The position numbers and the translations under genes are program-made. A stretch of DNA of 64,000 bases from a virus. Shown piece by piece: positions 13,310 to 55,738 of this stretch (positions within the stretch are counted from its first letter, which is position 1; every line of letters starts with the position of its first letter). The notes below the pieces were generated by a model, which was not told the origin of the DNA, ran no database searches, and saw only the letters and a program-made list of their open reading frames with translations. The stretch covers positions 28,931 to 92,930 of the IMG/VR virus record IMGVR_UViG_3300042484_001245; one strand, given 5' to 3'.

Positions 13310-13969
13310 ATGAAACTTATTTGCGAAGTTACAGAAGAAATCAAAGTAATCAAAGAGGGTGCAGAAACAGACCCTAAAAGCTATTACATTGAAGGTGTCT
13401 TCATGCAAGCGGAGATCAAGAACCGCAACGGACGTATGTACCCTGAAGAAATGCTCAAGAGAGAAATCGAGCGTTACAATGTTGAATACGTTCAAAAGAA
13501 ACGTGCGTTTGGTGAGTTAGGACATCCAGATGGACCTACAATCAATCTTGATCGTGTATCACACATGATCACTGAGCTTCGTCATGAGGGTGCAGACTTC
13601 ATAGGCAAGGCTAAGATTCTCAGTACACCAAATGGAAATATTGTTAAAGCACTTATTGATGAAGGTGCACGCCTTGGCGTGTCTTCTCGCGGAATGGGCT
13701 CAATCAAAACTGAAGGGCGCGATGTGCAGATCGTACAAGATGATTTTTATCTTGCAACAGCAGCCGATATTGTGGCAGACCCTAGTGCGCCTGATGCGTT
13801 TGTTAATGGGATAATGGAAGGTAAAGAGTGGGTATGGCAGAACGGCATACTCTGTGAGCGTGATATTCACGATATGAAGAAGCGCATTCAAAAAGCTCCA
13901 GCTAAGAAGATCAAAGAAGTAAGTGTGCAAGCATTTGAGAGCTTCATCAGGAAACTCGAAAAAAAGTAA
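13310..13969 (+). CDS. gp21: prohead core protease gp21
   Basis: 219 residues from the ATG at 13310; the ORF extends upstream, but the conserved N-terminus (MKLICEVTEEI) starts here. Catalytic landmarks are the histidine in FGELGHPDGP (H72) and the serine in LGVSSRGMGS (S125 or S126). They are typical of the herpes-assemblin/T4 prohead protease fold. In T4, gp21 matures the prohead by cutting core and capsid proteins after [LI]-x-E. Likely substrates are encoded nearby: gp23 (ITE at residues 50-52), gp22, the small core protein, and several tagged proteins at 46-56 kb. Confidence 0.92.
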   Translation: MKLICEVTEEIKVIKEGAETDPKSYYIEGVFMQAEIKNRNGRMYPEEMLKREIERYNVEYVQKKRAFGELGHPDGPTINLDRVSHMITELRHEGADFIGKAKILSTPNGNIVKALIDEGARLGVSSRGMGSIKTEGRDVQIVQDDFYLATAADIVADPSAPDAFVNGIMEGKEWVWQNGILCERDIHDMKKRIQKAPAKKIKEVSVQAFESFIRKLEKK

Positions 13970-46311: not shown

Positions 46312-46319
46312 CATAAATA
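46312..46319 (+). promoter_or_regulatory. late promoter ahead of the capsid-tagged gene block
   Basis: CATAAATA, 27 bases before the ATG at 46347. It marks a switch from early replication genes to late-expressed accessory genes, as expected if these products go into the capsid. Confidence 0.6.
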
Positions 46320-46346
46320 ATTGGTTGTGTGAGACTGATACGACCA

Positions 46347-47570
46347 ATGAGAACATTTAGACAATACATAACTGAATCTGCTGATAAGAATACTCATCTT
46401 GAGCATTTGGAAGATGAGGTATTCAATGGTGGTGTCAACGGCACTCGTAGAGCTATCAATTTTTTGAGAGGTCTGCGTGATATGCTTTCTGGAAGCAGCA
46501 CATCATCAGTCAACGTTACGGTTAAGTGGGACGGAGCGCCTGCAATCGTTTGTGGTATCAATCCAGAAAACGGTAAGTTCTTTGTTGCAACAAAGAGCGC
46601 ATTCAATAAGACACCAAAGCTCAACTATACACATGATGATATTGAAAAGAACCATTCTGGTCAGACAGCTCTTATTGAAAAATTGCGCATAGCTCTCGAC
46701 AATCTTTCCAAGCTAGGTATCAAAGGTGTTCTTCAGGGTGATCTTCTTTTCACAAAAGGTGAATTGCAAAACATCGAACACAGCGGCGAGTCACTTCTTG
46801 CATTTAGAGCAAACACAATCACGTATGCTGTTCCACAAGATTCAGATCTTGCAGATACAATTCGTGCAGCTAACATAGGCATCGTGTTTCACACAACGTA
46901 CACTGGCAACAAGATTCAAGATATGAAAGCGTCATTTGGCGCAAACGTTTCATCACTCAAGAAGACATCGAGTGTATGGGTTACTGATGCAGATTTCAGA
47001 GATGAATCTGGAACAGCAACACTCACAAAAGATGAGACGGCATACGTTACAGCACGTCTTAGTGAAATTGGCAGACAGTTCAATAGAATGGACTCAGCCA
47101 TTATCAACGAGATCGTAACTGATGACGAACTTATTGCATTCGTAAAAACTTATGTGAACGCTAAGGTAAAAGTTGGTGAGAACATCACTGGCACACAAAA
47201 GTACGCAAAGGGTCTTGTTGAATTCATCACAGACAAGTATCAGAAAGAGATTGACAAGCTCAAGACAGAGCGAGGAAAACAAGGTCGTAAAGAGCGACTA
47301 AATGCACACATATCTTTCATCAAAACAAATCGTGAGCAGTTAATTTTGATGTTCTTAATTGCAGCACTGATTGCTGATGTGAAAGGTGTTTTGTTGAGCA
47401 AGCTACGCAAAGTCAATTCTATTGGCACGTTTTTAGAGACGCCTGATGGTTTCAAAGTAACTTCGCCTGAAGGCTTCGTTGCAGTAGACCACTTGAAGGG
47501 TAACGCAGTTAAACTTGTTGATCGTCTTGAATTCAGTAGAGCAAATTTCACACTCGACAAAGGTTGGTAG
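46347..47570 (+). CDS. ligase-like nucleotidyltransferase with capsid-targeting N-terminus
   Basis: 407 residues from ATG 46347. The first ten residues MRTFRQYITE match the T4 capsid-targeting sequence and contain an I-T-E gp21 site. The body shows motifs of the DNA/RNA ligase superfamily: motif I VKWDGAPA (K70, D72, G73), a motif III-like segment GVLQGDLLF, motif IV SPEGFVAV and motif V GNAVKLVD near the C-terminus. The lysine of K-x-D-G would carry the nucleotide. The target (DNA, RNA or other) cannot be told. Sequence is far from T4 gp30 or Rnl1. Confidence 0.6.
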   Translation: MRTFRQYITESADKNTHLEHLEDEVFNGGVNGTRRAINFLRGLRDMLSGSSTSSVNVTVKWDGAPAIVCGINPENGKFFVATKSAFNKTPKLNYTHDDIEKNHSGQTALIEKLRIALDNLSKLGIKGVLQGDLLFTKGELQNIEHSGESLLAFRANTITYAVPQDSDLADTIRAANIGIVFHTTYTGNKIQDMKASFGANVSSLKKTSSVWVTDADFRDESGTATLTKDETAYVTARLSEIGRQFNRMDSAIINEIVTDDELIAFVKTYVNAKVKVGENITGTQKYAKGLVEFITDKYQKEIDKLKTERGKQGRKERLNAHISFIKTNREQLILMFLIAALIADVKGVLLSKLRKVNSIGTFLETPDGFKVTSPEGFVAVDHLKGNAVKLVDRLEFSRANFTLDKGW

Positions 47571-47572
47571 AC

Positions 47573-48289
47573 ATGAAACGTTTCAAAGTATTCATTACAG
47601 AGTCACACGACGATCTTCATGAAGATGCTGAGTATCAAGGTAAGAAAGTTACTTTGAACAAGCCATTCAGAACTCCAGATGGACCAAAGAAATTTTCTGT
47701 GTATGTAAAGAATGACAATGGTAACGTTGTCAAAGTCAACTTCGGTGATCCCAATATGGAGATTAAGCGTGATGATCCTGAGCGTAGAGCAAATTACAGA
47801 GCACGCCACAATTGTGATGATCCCGGACCTAAGTGGAAAGCAAACTACTGGTCATGCAAGATGTGGTCTTCAAAACCAGTCTCTAAGATTGCAGAGAATG
47901 TTGATGTGTCTCAAGCCGCAAAACTGTTCTCTAAGTTTTTGAGAACTACTGGTGCTCCAGACAAAGTTTCTACATTCACATCGACAAAGAAAAATGTGTT
48001 CAAAGGGCAATCAGCTAAATGGGAATACGTTGTTGATATGGACAAGAAAACTGTATCGGCACGTCAACGTTCTAGCATGAATGATGCTGTGTATGTGTGG
48101 GATGATAAGACTAACGCAATTAAAATTGTTGAGTCTAAGACCAACTTAACTGAAGCAGCACCACCTGACGCAGAAGTTGAGCAGTGGATTAAAGACAACA
48201 AAGAAAGATTTAAGAAAGAGTATGGTGCAGAAGAGGGTGAAAAGATTCTCTATGCAAAGGCTTGGAAAATGTATAATGATAAAAAGTAG
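47573..48289 (+). CDS. capsid-tagged protein with RHNCD-type phage domain
   Basis: 238 residues from ATG 47573, 2 bases after the previous stop. The N-terminus MKRFKVFITE fits the capsid-targeting pattern with an ITE/S cut. Residues 22-105 form a domain common in marine phage proteins (KKVTLNKPFRTPDGPKKFSV, VNFGDPNMEIKRDDPERR, RARHNCDDPGPKWKANYWSC), function unknown. A second part follows (FLRTTGAPDKVSTFTS, then VVDMDKKTVSARQRSS). The C-terminal tail is charged and helical. Confidence 0.6.
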   Translation: MKRFKVFITESHDDLHEDAEYQGKKVTLNKPFRTPDGPKKFSVYVKNDNGNVVKVNFGDPNMEIKRDDPERRANYRARHNCDDPGPKWKANYWSCKMWSSKPVSKIAENVDVSQAAKLFSKFLRTTGAPDKVSTFTSTKKNVFKGQSAKWEYVVDMDKKTVSARQRSSMNDAVYVWDDKTNAIKIVESKTNLTEAAPPDAEVEQWIKDNKERFKKEYGAEEGEKILYAKAWKMYNDKK

Positions 48290-48298
48290 GAGAATGTT

Positions 48299-48541
48299 AT
48301 GATCGTAAAACCTTTATCACAAGAAGTCACACTCGCATCTGCAACTGATGTTGAGCTTGCATCTGTTGTTCGTGTTGTCAATACTGGCAGTACAACTACT
48401 GTTACTGTCAAAGATGGTGACACAACAGTAGCATCGCTGACTGTAGCAGCTGGCGAAGTTTTGAATATTCAAAAGACACCTTCGCATACATTGTTGGCAA
48501 CAGCATCAGTAAAAGCAGTGAAGATTGCACACACAAACTAA
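48299..48541 (+). CDS. small beta-rich virion-type protein
   Basis: 80 residues with a good ribosome site (AGGAG at 48288-48292). The pattern of T/V-rich strands (VVRVVNTGSTTTVTVKDGDT, then VAAGEVLNIQKTPSHTL) resembles a small protein often found among phage structural genes, probably a decoration or minor head component. It overlaps the next start by 1 base (TAATG). Confidence 0.5.
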   Translation: MIVKPLSQEVTLASATDVELASVVRVVNTGSTTTVTVKDGDTTVASLTVAAGEVLNIQKTPSHTLLATASVKAVKIAHTN

Positions 48542-49599
48542 TGAAAAGTTTTGTTGAATACATCACGGAGGCTAATCCAGTTGTCGATAAACAATATCGC
48601 AGCGAAGCCCTGCACGTATTCAATCGAATTATTGCCAAGCTAGAAAATCTAGTCAAAGCAAAATCAACACAGCACATGAAGATTGAGCAATCGACTCGAT
48701 CTCCTGTTTTGTATTTTGATCTTGGTGAATTTCTTGGTGATGGTCGATACAAAGGTGTTAGACTATCATTTGATAGTGTCAATCGCAATTATGGTGGGGC
48801 GTACGGCAATGAATATGGTAAAATTGAACTTGTTCTTGCCATTATGAACATGAGAAAGGTGCGAGATCCTAAATATAAAATGACCAACACCTCATATGAT
48901 GATCATAATGGTTGGGAGTATTCTCCAGCATTTCTTAATTGGGAGGACTCAAGTAATTATGAACACCTTTTGGATACTATAAAGAGAAAGAAAGAAGAAG
49001 TGCGAGACGTTTTTGTTCATGAGTTTATTCATCACATGGACACATTTCGATACAAAAAGTCTGCATACAAATCAGAGCCATCATACAACGACAGAACTGG
49101 CTACGGTCAAGAATATTTCAATCATCCAAAAGAGCTGAACGCCCACACACAAGAAATGATCATGAATATTGATGAGTGGTATAAAACATACTACCTCAGT
49201 ATCGCTACAACACTCAAATCAAATTTTGTAAAGAAGTTTAACTCGGCAAATAATCAAGACCAATATGAAGATGCGATGTTTCTCGCTCATAAGTTTGCAT
49301 TGAACTACGATATGTTTGTTCAATACATTTCGGACAAAAATTTTGCCATAAAAGAGATTAGAGAAAAGATACCTAGAGGAAAACACATTTTCGGAAAACA
49401 CTTAACGGTTGATAACAAGAAAAAGGTTTTAGCTAGACTGTATCAATACTATGATGAAGTGTTGAAGAAGAGGTTTCAGCTTCTTAAATCTACGCTAGAT
49501 AAATTACCAAAGCAATTAAACAATCCAGAAGCCGCAGCGTATGTAAAACTTCATGCGCCTGATGCATACAAAACTCTTCGTAAACTGGGTATGAAATGA
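48541..49599 (+). CDS. capsid-tagged HExxH metallopeptidase
   Basis: 352 residues. N-terminus MKSFVEYITE (capsid-targeting pattern, ITE/A cut). Zinc motif VFVHEFIHHMDTF with H160, E161, H164; a possible third ligand lies in NHPKELNAHTQE about 40 residues later. The C-terminal half is helical and basic. An inactive or shielded protease inside the head that acts after injection is one model; it may also act in head maturation. No close family recognised. Confidence 0.6.
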   Translation: MKSFVEYITEANPVVDKQYRSEALHVFNRIIAKLENLVKAKSTQHMKIEQSTRSPVLYFDLGEFLGDGRYKGVRLSFDSVNRNYGGAYGNEYGKIELVLAIMNMRKVRDPKYKMTNTSYDDHNGWEYSPAFLNWEDSSNYEHLLDTIKRKKEEVRDVFVHEFIHHMDTFRYKKSAYKSEPSYNDRTGYGQEYFNHPKELNAHTQEMIMNIDEWYKTYYLSIATTLKSNFVKKFNSANNQDQYEDAMFLAHKFALNYDMFVQYISDKNFAIKEIREKIPRGKHIFGKHLTVDNKKKVLARLYQYYDEVLKKRFQLLKSTLDKLPKQLNNPEAAAYVKLHAPDAYKTLRKLGMK

Positions 49600-50609
49600 A
49601 AACTTTAGTAGAAGTTGTAAAGAAGAAAAAAGCAGTGTTCGCTTTTGGACGAATGAATCCTCCTACTATTGGTCACGAAAAACTCATCAACAAAGTAATT
49701 GCAGTTGCACGAAAAGAAAACGCAGAGCCGTTTATATTTGTTTCTCATACACAAGATTCAAAGAAGAATCCCTTGTCAAGTAAGCAGAAAGCAAAATACT
49801 TGAGACTTGGAGTTCCAGCAGCTGAAAAACACATCAAAGCAGAATCAACAATCAAAACTCCATTTGATGCTCTTGGTCATTTGATTGATCTTGGCTACAC
49901 TGATGTCATCATGATTGCTGGTGATGATCGTGTTGCAGATTTCAAAAAGTCTATTGGCAGTTATGTTAATCATCCAGATCCTGATAAGAGCTTTGAGTTA
50001 AACTCATTCAAAGTTGTTAGTGCAGGTGCTCGTGATCCAGATGCTGATGGTGCTGAAGGAATGAGCGCAACGAAAATGCGACAAGCTGCGACATCAAATG
50101 ATTTTGCATCTTTCAAGAAAGGTGTGCCATCGAATCTCAGTGACAAGTTTGCTCGTGAGATGTTTGATGAAATTCGCAAAGCTATGCACATTGTTGAAAT
50201 GGTCGAAGAGATTCAAAAACTCAAGAACACTCTCAATATACCACGCAAGAATATGCCACAGATCAAGCGAGAGTTCATACCAGATTTTATTAAGAGACTT
50301 GACAAACTTGGTGTTGACGTTGCAAAGCGTGATGTAAGCGTTCGCACTCTCAAGCCAACACAGTCAGAAGTGAACATGAATAAGGTGCGTGAGAAGCACG
50401 AGAAGTTTGTGAGTGGTAAGAAAGAGCCTAAGCCATTCATCGTATCATACGACAACTTTATATTGGACGGTCACCATCAGTTGTTGGCTCTTCAGACTTT
50501 GGATAAAGACATTAAAGTGCCATGCTACGTCATTGGCATACGAATGAAAGACTTATTGCAGTACGCACATGACTATCCAAAGACAACTTATAAAGACATA
50601 GACGACTAA
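49596..50609 (+). CDS. NadR/FAD-synthetase-type nucleotidyltransferase fused to a ParB-like domain
   Basis: 337 residues, starting in an ATGA overlap. The N-terminal domain has FGRMNPPTIGHEKLI (the H-x-G-H-type motif of nucleotidylyltransferases), then IMIAGDDRVADF and GMSATKMRQAA (the I-S-S-T-x-x-R-type motif). The C-terminal domain has PFIVSYDNFILDGHHQLLAL, a ParB/sulfiredoxin-like D-G-H-H motif. The product could be an NAD- or CDP-type adenylyl or cytidylyl transfer. The N-terminus (MKTLVEVVKK) recalls the neighbours' tag but lacks the E at position 10. Confidence 0.65.
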   Translation: MKTLVEVVKKKKAVFAFGRMNPPTIGHEKLINKVIAVARKENAEPFIFVSHTQDSKKNPLSSKQKAKYLRLGVPAAEKHIKAESTIKTPFDALGHLIDLGYTDVIMIAGDDRVADFKKSIGSYVNHPDPDKSFELNSFKVVSAGARDPDADGAEGMSATKMRQAATSNDFASFKKGVPSNLSDKFAREMFDEIRKAMHIVEMVEEIQKLKNTLNIPRKNMPQIKREFIPDFIKRLDKLGVDVAKRDVSVRTLKPTQSEVNMNKVREKHEKFVSGKKEPKPFIVSYDNFILDGHHQLLALQTLDKDIKVPCYVIGIRMKDLLQYAHDYPKTTYKDIDD

Positions 50610-50620
50610 ATACGAATACT

Positions 50621-50938
50621 ATGAAAGACTTCAAAACATTCATAAACGAAGCAGCAGACACGTCACCCTCGGCTGAAGACCGTGCTCGTGAGCGCATCAA
50701 TCGTGAGAAAGAAGCGGCAAAGATTCGCCAGAATCGTGAGTTGGAACGTGCTCGTGAACAAGACTTTAGAAAGAAAGTTGCTGACAGAAAAGCAGCTGAA
50801 GTAAAGAAGAACGCAGAGCGAGCCCTTGGTGAAGAAGATGTTGTTACAACAGACGACACCGAAGAAGTGACTGAGTATGTTGAAGATGGCACACCTGAAG
50901 CTGTAGCAGCATATCGAAAAGCTACGCCAGGAATCTAG
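50621..50938 (+). CDS. small capsid-tagged internal-protein-like gene
   Basis: 105 residues. N-terminus MKDFKTFINE with an INE/A cut. The rest is a single highly charged helix (RARERINREKEAAKIRQNRE and on), then an acidic patch (EEDVVTTDDTEEVTEYVEDG). Size and composition recall the T4 internal proteins IPI-IPIII. An ACTAAATA overlaps the previous stop (50605-50612), but only 8 bases before this ATG. Confidence 0.6.
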   Translation: MKDFKTFINEAADTSPSAEDRARERINREKEAAKIRQNRELERAREQDFRKKVADRKAAEVKKNAERALGEEDVVTTDDTEEVTEYVEDGTPEAVAAYRKATPGI

Positions 50939-53468: not shown

Positions 53469-54056
53469 ATGAAATCGTTTCGCACATATTTGAAAGAAGA
53501 TGTTGAGGTAGACAGTGACGTTGCGGTAACAACTGCACTTCCTGAAATCTATCTTGATATGGACGAAACAATCGTAGACTGGATGAAAGGTGCTGACGAA
53601 GCTCTTGAGCGAGCTGGCAAGCCATCATGGAATGATTCATACTGGACAGAGAATCACACTGAAGAAGAAGCTGAAAAGATCAAGTGGCAGATTCTTAATA
53701 CTACACCAAACTTCTGGGAGAATCTTGAATTTCTACCTGACGGTAAAGCCCTCTGGAACTTTGTGAAGAAGTACAAGCCACACATTCTCAGTGCCTGTGG
53801 CACACTCGCCACTACGTGTAAGAATGGCAAGAAACGTTGGTTAGCAAAGTTCTTAGGGTATAAAAACCTTGGTAACATTCATCTTGTAAAGCGTTCACAG
53901 AAAAAAGATTTTGCTGTTGTTGATGGTAAGCCCACAATACTTATTGACGATTTCATCAAGAATTGTCAAGAGTACAAAGCTCATGGTGGGCTGGCAATTC
54001 AGCGCACAACTACTATAGAAGTGATTAGTAAATTAAAGCGTCTGGGATTCAAATAA
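53469..54056 (+). CDS. capsid-tagged HAD-family nucleotidase
   Basis: 195 residues from ATG 53469. N-terminus MKSFRTYLKE (capsid-targeting pattern with L-K-E). HAD motif I is IYLDMDETIVDWM (nucleophile D30, D32), motif II-like HILSACGT, then KRWLAKFLGYKN and motif IV PTILIDDFIKNC. The layout is that of small 5'(3')-deoxyribonucleotidases. A nucleotidase delivered with the DNA could alter host nucleotide pools at the first minutes of infection. Confidence 0.7.
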   Translation: MKSFRTYLKEDVEVDSDVAVTTALPEIYLDMDETIVDWMKGADEALERAGKPSWNDSYWTENHTEEEAEKIKWQILNTTPNFWENLEFLPDGKALWNFVKKYKPHILSACGTLATTCKNGKKRWLAKFLGYKNLGNIHLVKRSQKKDFAVVDGKPTILIDDFIKNCQEYKAHGGLAIQRTTTIEVISKLKRLGFK

Positions 54057-54977: not shown

Positions 54978-55391
54978 ATGCTAGATGAATTTTTTGAAGA
55001 TATGGGCATAAGATTGACAGAAAAAAATGTTGTCATGTATGCTATGAAACATTACGACAATGTTCAGTGCATCGACATTGATGAGTTCTATGACGACTTA
55101 AAGCGCATTAACTACATCAAACGTTTGTTTGTTCGTTACAAGAATGAAAATGAACTAAAAGAACGATTGATTCTTAACCATCTCATTATTTTGTTTAATG
55201 TGTTTCCTGTAAACGTTGCAACCAATCTTTTGTTCTTCAAGATAGACGGTGAACACTGGTCGCAGCTAAAAACGTTTCTTGTATATCTGAACTATATGCC
55301 AGAAAAGCTAACGTTTTTAGAAAATTGTGAGATCATCACCAGTGACATACCACTTGACTCTCACATCATATCTGTTTTGAGGTGCTTATGA
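54978..55391 (+). CDS. conserved T4-like phage protein of unknown function
   Basis: 137 residues. RINYIKRLFVRYKNENELKE, then RLILNHLIILFNVFPVNVAT and LKTFLVYLNYMPEKL form a helical protein I recognise as common in marine T4-like phages but without a known role. It overlaps the next start (ATGA). Confidence 0.6.
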   Translation: MLDEFFEDMGIRLTEKNVVMYAMKHYDNVQCIDIDEFYDDLKRINYIKRLFVRYKNENELKERLILNHLIILFNVFPVNVATNLLFFKIDGEHWSQLKTFLVYLNYMPEKLTFLENCEIITSDIPLDSHIISVLRCL

Positions 55392-55738
55392 AAACGTATC
55401 GCCAACTCATTACTGAAGCAAAGTCATTCTCAAAAGATGATGCACATCGTATCGGCGATAAACTAGACGTAAATTGGGACAAAGTTGACATCGAGCAATT
55501 CAGAATTGGTCTTGGCGTCGAAAGTGAGCACGATGATGGATCTGAGCTTGATGTTGTTGGATCTGAAAAAGACTTAGGCAAGATCGTACTCGCACACTTA
55601 ACAGAACTTCCAGATTACTACACAAAACTCAAGCAAGTTGAAGAAGAGGGTGTTCCAGCAAATTCAATCTCTGGTGGTGGAATCGCAAACATAGATCAAC
55701 CCCTCGTTCGCAAGAAACCAAAAAACGAAAGCAAATAA
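55388..55738 (+). CDS. capsid-tagged DUF5661-like protein
   Basis: 116 residues from ATG 55388. N-terminus MKTYRQLITE is the closest of all to the T4 internal-protein start MKTYQEFIAE, with an ITE/A cut. The body (AHRIGDKLDVNWDKVDIEQF, then KIVLAHLTELPDYYTKLKQV) fits DUF5661, a short helical domain found in phages and bacteria, unknown role. The C-terminus is basic. Confidence 0.65.
   Translation: MKTYRQLITEAKSFSKDDAHRIGDKLDVNWDKVDIEQFRIGLGVESEHDDGSELDVVGSEKDLGKIVLAHLTELPDYYTKLKQVEEEGVPANSISGGGIANIDQPLVRKKPKNESK

Follow-up and report, generated by a model that had tools for sequence, protein, structure and literature searches.

The window, a stretch of 64,000 nucleotides forming part of the 92,930-base virus record of a T4-like phage, encodes a DUF6267 protein (P0001) which, judging from structural models, is likely to be a member of the ligase superfamily with a form that is packaged in the phage head. 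On balance, the favoured reading of P0001 is that of a packaged nucleotidyltransferase of the ligase fold that depends on Lys60. The features on which this reading draws are listed in Table 1.

Table 1. Features of the window relevant to P0001 and its neighbourhood (a slash in a tag marks the predicted gp21 cut; CTS, capsid-targeting sequence).
Feature	Position	Strand	Details
gp21-type prohead protease (Peptidase_S77)	13373-13816	+	PF03420, 3.5e-38; expected remover of the tag
Late promoter motif CATAAATA, T4/cyanophage type	46312-46319	+	35 nt upstream of the P0001 ATG
DUF6267 protein P0001	46347-47570	+	predicted nucleotidyltransferase core ~14-215 and 358-407; helical insertion ~228-355
CTS MRTFRQYITE	46347-46376	+	predicted gp21 cut after Glu10 (MRTFRQYITE/S)
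Motif I, K60-W-D-G (K60-W-D-G-A-P-A)	46524-46535	+	K60, D62 and G63 invariant in 80 homologues; K60 closes strand 56-60
Motif III-like, Q-G-D132	46734-46742	+	D132 invariant; within strand 128-136
Motif IV, E375-G-F-V-A	47469-47483	+	E375 and G376 in 79/79; E375 precedes strand 376-381
Motif V, V-K389-L-V-D-R393	47508-47525	+	K389 in 79/79, R393 in 78/78; strand 386-390
Tagged MKRFKVFITE/S, DUF5754/phrog_7595-like	47573-48289	+	
Tagged MKSFVEYITE/A with zincin-like HEFIHH (HEFIHHMD) motif	48541-49599	+	motif read from the sequence
HIGH-family cytidylyl/adenylyltransferase with ParB-like C-terminus	49596-50609	+	PF01467 2.4e-6, phrog_3041 1.4e-61, phrog_455
Tagged small protein MKDFKTFINE/A	50621-50938	+	
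Tagged HAD phosphatase MKSFRTYLKE/D, 5'-3' deoxyribonucleotidase-like	53469-54056	+	phrog_2643 1.4e-22, NT5C 1.2e-4
Tagged DUF5661 protein MKTYRQLITE/A	55388-55738	+	

The gene codes for 407 amino acids, from an ATG at 46347 to a stop codon ending at 47570. A GTG in frame at 46329 would give an alternative product of 413 amino acids, but the ATG is preferred in view of the tag, the spacing of the late promoter and the homologues. In a Pfam scan, residues 15-405 match PF19782 (DUF6267, E=2.9e-118, 395.9 bits with a curated cut-off of 27), and the protein also falls into phrog_455, both families being without an assigned function. On one side of the gene lies that of a gp41-like helicase, while on the other a few small genes are followed by a cytidylyltransferase gene. 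In annotated cyanophages the DUF6267 gene is termed 'T4-GC 71' and sits immediately upstream of the cytidylyltransferase gene T4-GC190; these cyanophage proteins (DUF6267/T4-GC 71/phrog_455) are P0001's own family, in which many members are untagged and most of the helical insertion is missing from a short form. In one S-PM2 record (AJ630128; L192:3998-5777), the annotation of DUF6267 and the cytidylyltransferase runs across a frame disruption, with DUF6267 split into two pieces; the later S-PM2 record (LN828717) gives a single unbroken match.

The number of phage records with DUF6267 is 471, among them almost every cyanophage record possessing UvsX (371 Synechococcus-named records with DUF6267 against 375 with UvsX, and 61 against 61 for 'Cyanophage' records), as well as in hundreds of marine viral contigs. 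Apart from one locus in an assembly named Nonlabens (L182), the matches from assemblies of bacteria and archaea are probably phage contigs that ended up in MAGs by binning rather than cellular genes. No homologues of the short form were found in a search of plasmids.

An earlier preliminary description, made from the letters of the window, had noted K-W-D-G (motif I), E-G (motif IV) and a K-containing motif V in proper order, as in ligases and capping enzymes. This order is borne out by K60, E375 and K389, the motif I lysine having been given as K70 through a slip in numbering. That lysine, a lack of conservation of which was to have counted against the reading, is invariant in 80 homologues, together with D62, G63, P65, F79, K83, D132, N156, Y160, H182, T183 and Y185; for E375, G376 and K389 the counts are of the 79 homologues that reach these positions. 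A IIIa-like motif (G-I-V-F-H182-T) is present between motifs I and IV. Motif V has the form KxV and not the usual KxK, with position 391 being Val in 76 of 79 homologues and Ile in three. The residues expected of a lysine nucleotidyltransferase (K60-W-D-G, K83, D132, H182, E375-G, K389) are the best conserved of the family among the 80 homologues, and every one of them is retained in the short form of phage S-SM1. Even the strongly diverged DUF6267 protein of S-CREM2, in which the W of motif I is replaced by I, keeps K-x-D-G. K60 is predicted to be the AMP-accepting lysine, and P0001 is likely to be active in nucleotidyl transfer through it.

The AlphaFold2 model of P0001 (pLDDT 86.2, pTM 0.80) places the helical insertion between motifs IIIa and IV. 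The chain stops 18 residues past K389, so that there is room neither for an OB-fold with motif VI nor for any other domain after motif V. When VIA-align was run on the candidate structures supplied by Foldseek, the best match was the Naegleria RNA ligase 5cou (Z 8.2, 185 residues, 4.0 A), followed by KREL1 (1xdn, Z 8.0), T4 Rnl2 (1s68, 7.2) and Trl1 (7.2), with T4 Rnl1 (Z 6.9) and human DNA ligase 1 (Z 6.6) further down; a Z of about 8 is only moderate and lies inside the range about which the tool itself warns. As a separate test, the S-SM1 short form, which is about 34% identical to P0001 and lacks most of the helical insertion, was folded from a mostly different alignment. Its best match was again 5cou (Z 8.2, 173 residues, 3.8 A), all 50 of the VIA-align matches listed belong to the ligase superfamily, and its top Foldseek matches are tRNA, RNA and DNA ligases, with weak E-values. 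In BFVD, the first match outside the family bearing the name of a known enzyme class is a phage RNA ligase (A0A2L0UZB7, E 5.8e-3, prob 0.90). The full P0001 model gave no significant match in a Foldseek search of the PDB; the carbonic anhydrase rows returned there (TM about 0.07) are an artefact, and DnaK/Hsp70 rows in VIA-align cover only some 73 residues of helical parts.

At the sequence level the family stands apart. Comparison of the P0001 family with a T4 Rnl2 alignment by hhalign gave a Prob of 0.2% with the wrong region aligned, phmmer and a profile search of PDB sequences linked no known ligase to DUF6267, and Pfam and NCBIfam scans of P0001 identified no known ligase family. RNA_ligase (PF09414) had no match in the whole record or in the Pfam scan of P0001, and DNA_ligase_A_M had no profile match in P0001 or the record. 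Taking the two separate structure predictions together with the comparison to ligases, P0001 very probably has the nucleotidyltransferase fold of the ligase/mRNA-capping superfamily, which agrees with what had been read from its motifs. Since no sequence method ties it to T4 Rnl2, DUF6267 is concluded, as far as the models allow, to be a separate and divergent branch of the superfamily whose nearest relatives in fold are RNA ligases, and on the features tested it is concluded to lie within neither the Rnl2 nor the gp30 family. The earlier remark that the protein is unlike gp30, Rnl1 or Rnl2 accordingly stands for sequence, where Rnl2 was the family tested, but not for fold, where the closest structures are RNA ligases.

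Like P0001, the Naegleria gruberi enzyme (NgrRnl, Rnl5-type) has a KxDG nucleophile motif, motifs III, IV and V in the same order and a C-terminal nucleotidyltransferase domain with little following motif V. The two are only about 11-12% identical, and P0001 differs in its CTS, its helical insertion and its KxV, whereas NgrRnl possesses a further domain at its N-terminus and has KxK as its motif V. T4 Rnl2 (gp24.1) and KREL1 share the core fold and the ordered nucleophile-lysine, E-G and K motifs; however, Rnl2 shows no profile-level similarity to P0001 and lacks a CTS, while P0001 lacks the C-terminal domain. With T4 gp30 DNA ligase, which has an OB domain, P0001 has the superfamily core in common but not that domain.

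In T4, the CTS consists of ten residues, of which 4 and 7 serve targeting and 8 and 10 processing, with gp21 cutting after L/I-x-E (PMC9026906). The P0001 tag, the presence of which had already been remarked upon, has F4, Y7, I8 and E10 and so agrees with the T4 sequence at each key position; residues 1-13 have low pLDDT in the model. Using a pattern written after the tag had been seen (M[KR]x[FLY]xx[FYIVLM][ILVFM]xE), six window ORFs were found to open with such a tag, each at a gene start on the plus strand, where about 0.01 would be expected, and a search of the window in six frames gave no further match. Across 190 related loci (1.66 Mb), the pattern occurs 140 times on the plus strand, 128 of these near an ORF start, and not at all on the minus strand, although start-codon position is the better control here, as the genes themselves lie on the plus strand. 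A tag-like N-terminus is present in 66 of the 68 homologues having at least seven residues before the domain (set A2).

DUF6267 proteins without a tag are found in the cyanophages S-SM1, Syn1, S-PM2, S-SZBM1 and S-CREM2, and the short-form clade (nine rows, support 100/100) has no tagged member. Mapping tag gain and loss on the tree gave 18 changes, an overestimate since automatic start choice misses GTG and TTG starts as well as tags shorter by one residue. The existence of untagged copies means that the enzyme must also be of use when made intracellularly. In three of these cyanophages the neighbouring cytidylyltransferase carries a tag and was detected in the virion by mass spectrometry, namely in S-SM1 (MKKFSAFLNE/A; PMC3037559), S-SZBM1 (S-SZBM1_140, MRFRQFIIE/A; PMC9146016) and S-CREM2 (gp154, MKNFSSFLTE/A; PMC10665884). 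The untagged DUF6267 proteins S-SZBM1_141 and S-CREM2 gp87 do not appear in the published virion lists, absence from such a list being weak evidence (PMC9146016, PMC10665884). This fits with the tag being what directs proteins into the head: as it tracks virion presence in cyanophages, tagged P0001 is implied to be cargo, while the missing untagged proteins imply that some phages do not use DUF6267 as cargo. The P0001 copy is very likely packaged. The preliminary prediction of capsid cargo is well supported for this copy, in view of its tag, late motif, the gp21 gene and the presence of a tagged neighbour gene's product in virions, but it cannot be generalised to the untagged cyanophage copies.

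T4 loads its internal proteins IPI-III and Alt into the prohead and later injects them, IPI-III entering by means of a ten-residue CTS removed by gp21 after L/I-x-E. As P0001 carries a T4-like head-loading tag, it too probably enters the host along with the phage DNA; its mature domain differs from those of the T4 proteins, the cargo here being an enzyme of predicted ligase fold. We know of no mass-spectrometric detection of a tagged DUF6267 protein in virions.

The late motif NATAAATA occurs 12 times on the plus strand of the window (including 16026, 46312 and 54052) and never on the minus strand. Eight of the 12 sites lie 20-60 nt ahead of an ORF start, including that of the major head gene, where the spacing (43 nt) is similar to that at P0001. 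These sites mark the likely late transcription units of the phage. Among relatives, a late motif is present upstream of DUF6267 in 22 of 131 loci, with 3.7% expected (P 3e-9).

The conserved partner of DUF6267 in terms of synteny is the HIGH-family nucleotidyltransferase (T4-GC190). The window copy begins MKTLVEVVKK, which does not fit the strict tag, and its ParB-like C-terminal domain has PFIVSYDNFILDGHHQLLA; members of this family are cyanophage virion proteins. In the related loci, a deduplicated list contains 58 distinct tagged entries other than DUF6267 within about 6 kb of it. HIGH cytidylyltransferases are the commonest, and others include HAD phosphatases (a few of the PHROG 'polynucleotide kinase' type), adenylate-kinase and zeta-toxin-like P-loop kinases, an HD hydrolase, an ATP-grasp protein and a Pol-beta nucleotidyltransferase. 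This suggests the locus to be a modular set of head cargo rich in enzymes of nucleotide and nucleic-acid metabolism.

Enzymes of this superfamily form a lysyl-NMP intermediate and then transfer the nucleotide onto a 5' end. From the promoter motif, P0001 would be expressed late, guided into the prohead by its ten-residue CTS, released from the tag when gp21 cuts after Glu10 and, as in T4, injected alongside the genome. Once inside the cell, the enzyme would bind ATP and load a nucleotide, presumably AMP, on Lys60, from which 5'-phosphate ends, most probably of RNA, could be activated and joined. Candidate targets are tRNAs cut by host defence nucleases, which would give the enzyme a role in defence evasion, and the tagged HAD phosphatases and P-loop kinases beside DUF6267 in some phages may carry out end repair. 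RNA-end joining is the leading guess since the closest folds are RNA ligases and tagged end-processing enzymes adjoin DUF6267 in some phages; it is tentative, falling somewhat short of an even chance. T4 is known to repair RNA cut by host nucleases, and such repair has been described for jumbo phages (PMC7824862). Against such a link, the supporting neighbours vary from phage to phage, the constant partner is a cytidylyltransferase rather than a kinase-phosphatase, and the window yielded no tRNA gene. Given the KxV motif and the lack of a substrate-binding domain after motif V, full ligation might also depend on the helical insertion or on a second protein, or the reaction might end with nucleotidyl transfer. 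A wider proposal, which is possible but doubtful, is that in T4-like marine phages the head-loaded ligase-fold enzyme and the tagged phosphatases, kinases and nucleotidyltransferases form a nucleic-acid repair kit acting before phage gene expression, for example by resealing tRNAs cut by anticodon nucleases, the cargo being modular and switched between packaged and intracellular forms by gain or loss of the ten-residue tag.

Cyanomyoviruses have no recognisable g30, and a review has left open the existence of an unrecognised distant homologue (PMC2984593). DUF6267, being nearly universal in these phages and adjoining uvsX and gp41, could be considered for this missing DNA ligase, which would close nicks in the phage genome at entry or while it is being replicated, and PF01068 had no match in S-PM2, Syn1, S-SM1, Melnitz, HTVC008M or the window record, the last being incomplete. 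However, an ordinary DNA ligase co-occurs with DUF6267 in DLP6 and three large relatives, that is, in four of nine relatives checked, so that DUF6267 is not a simple replacement for gp30 and the strict form of this explanation was rejected. RNA ligases also rank ahead of DNA ligases as fold neighbours, P0001 has no OB fold, and a replication enzyme would have no need of a capsid tag; overall a role as the missing ligase is unlikely. Slightly less improbable is a core that does not ligate but AMPylates a host protein or small molecule, or takes part in NAD or nucleotide chemistry with the adjacent cytidylyl/adenylyltransferase. The bare core and KxV motif V are in keeping with this, as are the HIGH nucleotidyltransferases (phrog_455), virion proteins that are constantly adjacent and in some cases fused to DUF6267 and have been called NMNAT-like (PMC9602691). 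The head-packaged Alt, a modifier of host proteins, offers a precedent, yet in this superfamily the KxDG/EG/K set mostly goes with the activation of polynucleotide ends, there is no known host target, and nothing in the present analysis points to protein binding.

That P0001 is a degenerate or purely structural protein of the head core, its fold kept and its catalysis lost, is very unlikely. Its motif V is divergent, no activity is known, and T4 internal proteins are often non-enzymatic (PMC9026906), but no residues are better conserved than the catalytic ones, whether the protein is tagged or not and even in the diverged KIDG copy, and untagged forms cannot become head-core proteins by way of a tag. 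Marginally less probable still is a mistaken fold call, with the likeness to ligases reflecting a mere common arrangement of beta-strands; the modest Z scores and the non-significant Foldseek E-values would permit it, whereas two separate models arrive at the same best family, nearly all matches listed belong to one superfamily and the motifs lie in order on the right strands.

Its placement in the ligase superfamily provides DUF6267, a family without assigned function, with a reaction open to testing and a target residue for mutation; the family is present in almost every cyanomyovirus sequenced and is also common among other T4-like phages of the sea. The question of the absent cyanomyovirus ligase is reopened, with the co-occurrence of DNA ligase speaking against simple replacement. 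If the tagged copies are packaged, they would to our knowledge be the first example, among tailed phages, of an enzyme of ligase fold carried in the head. More generally, the tag predicts virion cargo from sequence alone, and dozens of tagged proteins adjoin DUF6267 in related phages.

A number of individual genes in these loci merit mention. The zincin-like product at 48541-49599 in the window is a possible head-packaged metallopeptidase, its Pfam match to PhiKZ_gp85 being weak and below cut-off. CTS-tagged adenylate kinases lie immediately downstream of DUF6267 in three related loci (L149:4801-5385, L166:1239-1823, L163:7224-7799). Another tagged product (L097:7236-7733) contains LYHQTSDKNLTNIRKQG, reminiscent of ADP-ribosyltransferases, with no match in Pfam or PHROG, and a tagged HD_4 hydrolase (L159:12168-12722) has an opening sequence resembling that of (p)ppGpp hydrolases. 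Finally, a large protein starting MRFKDFIKES (L163:8765-11623) combines a Pol-beta-type nucleotidyltransferase with a cytidylyltransferase domain and DUF5824.
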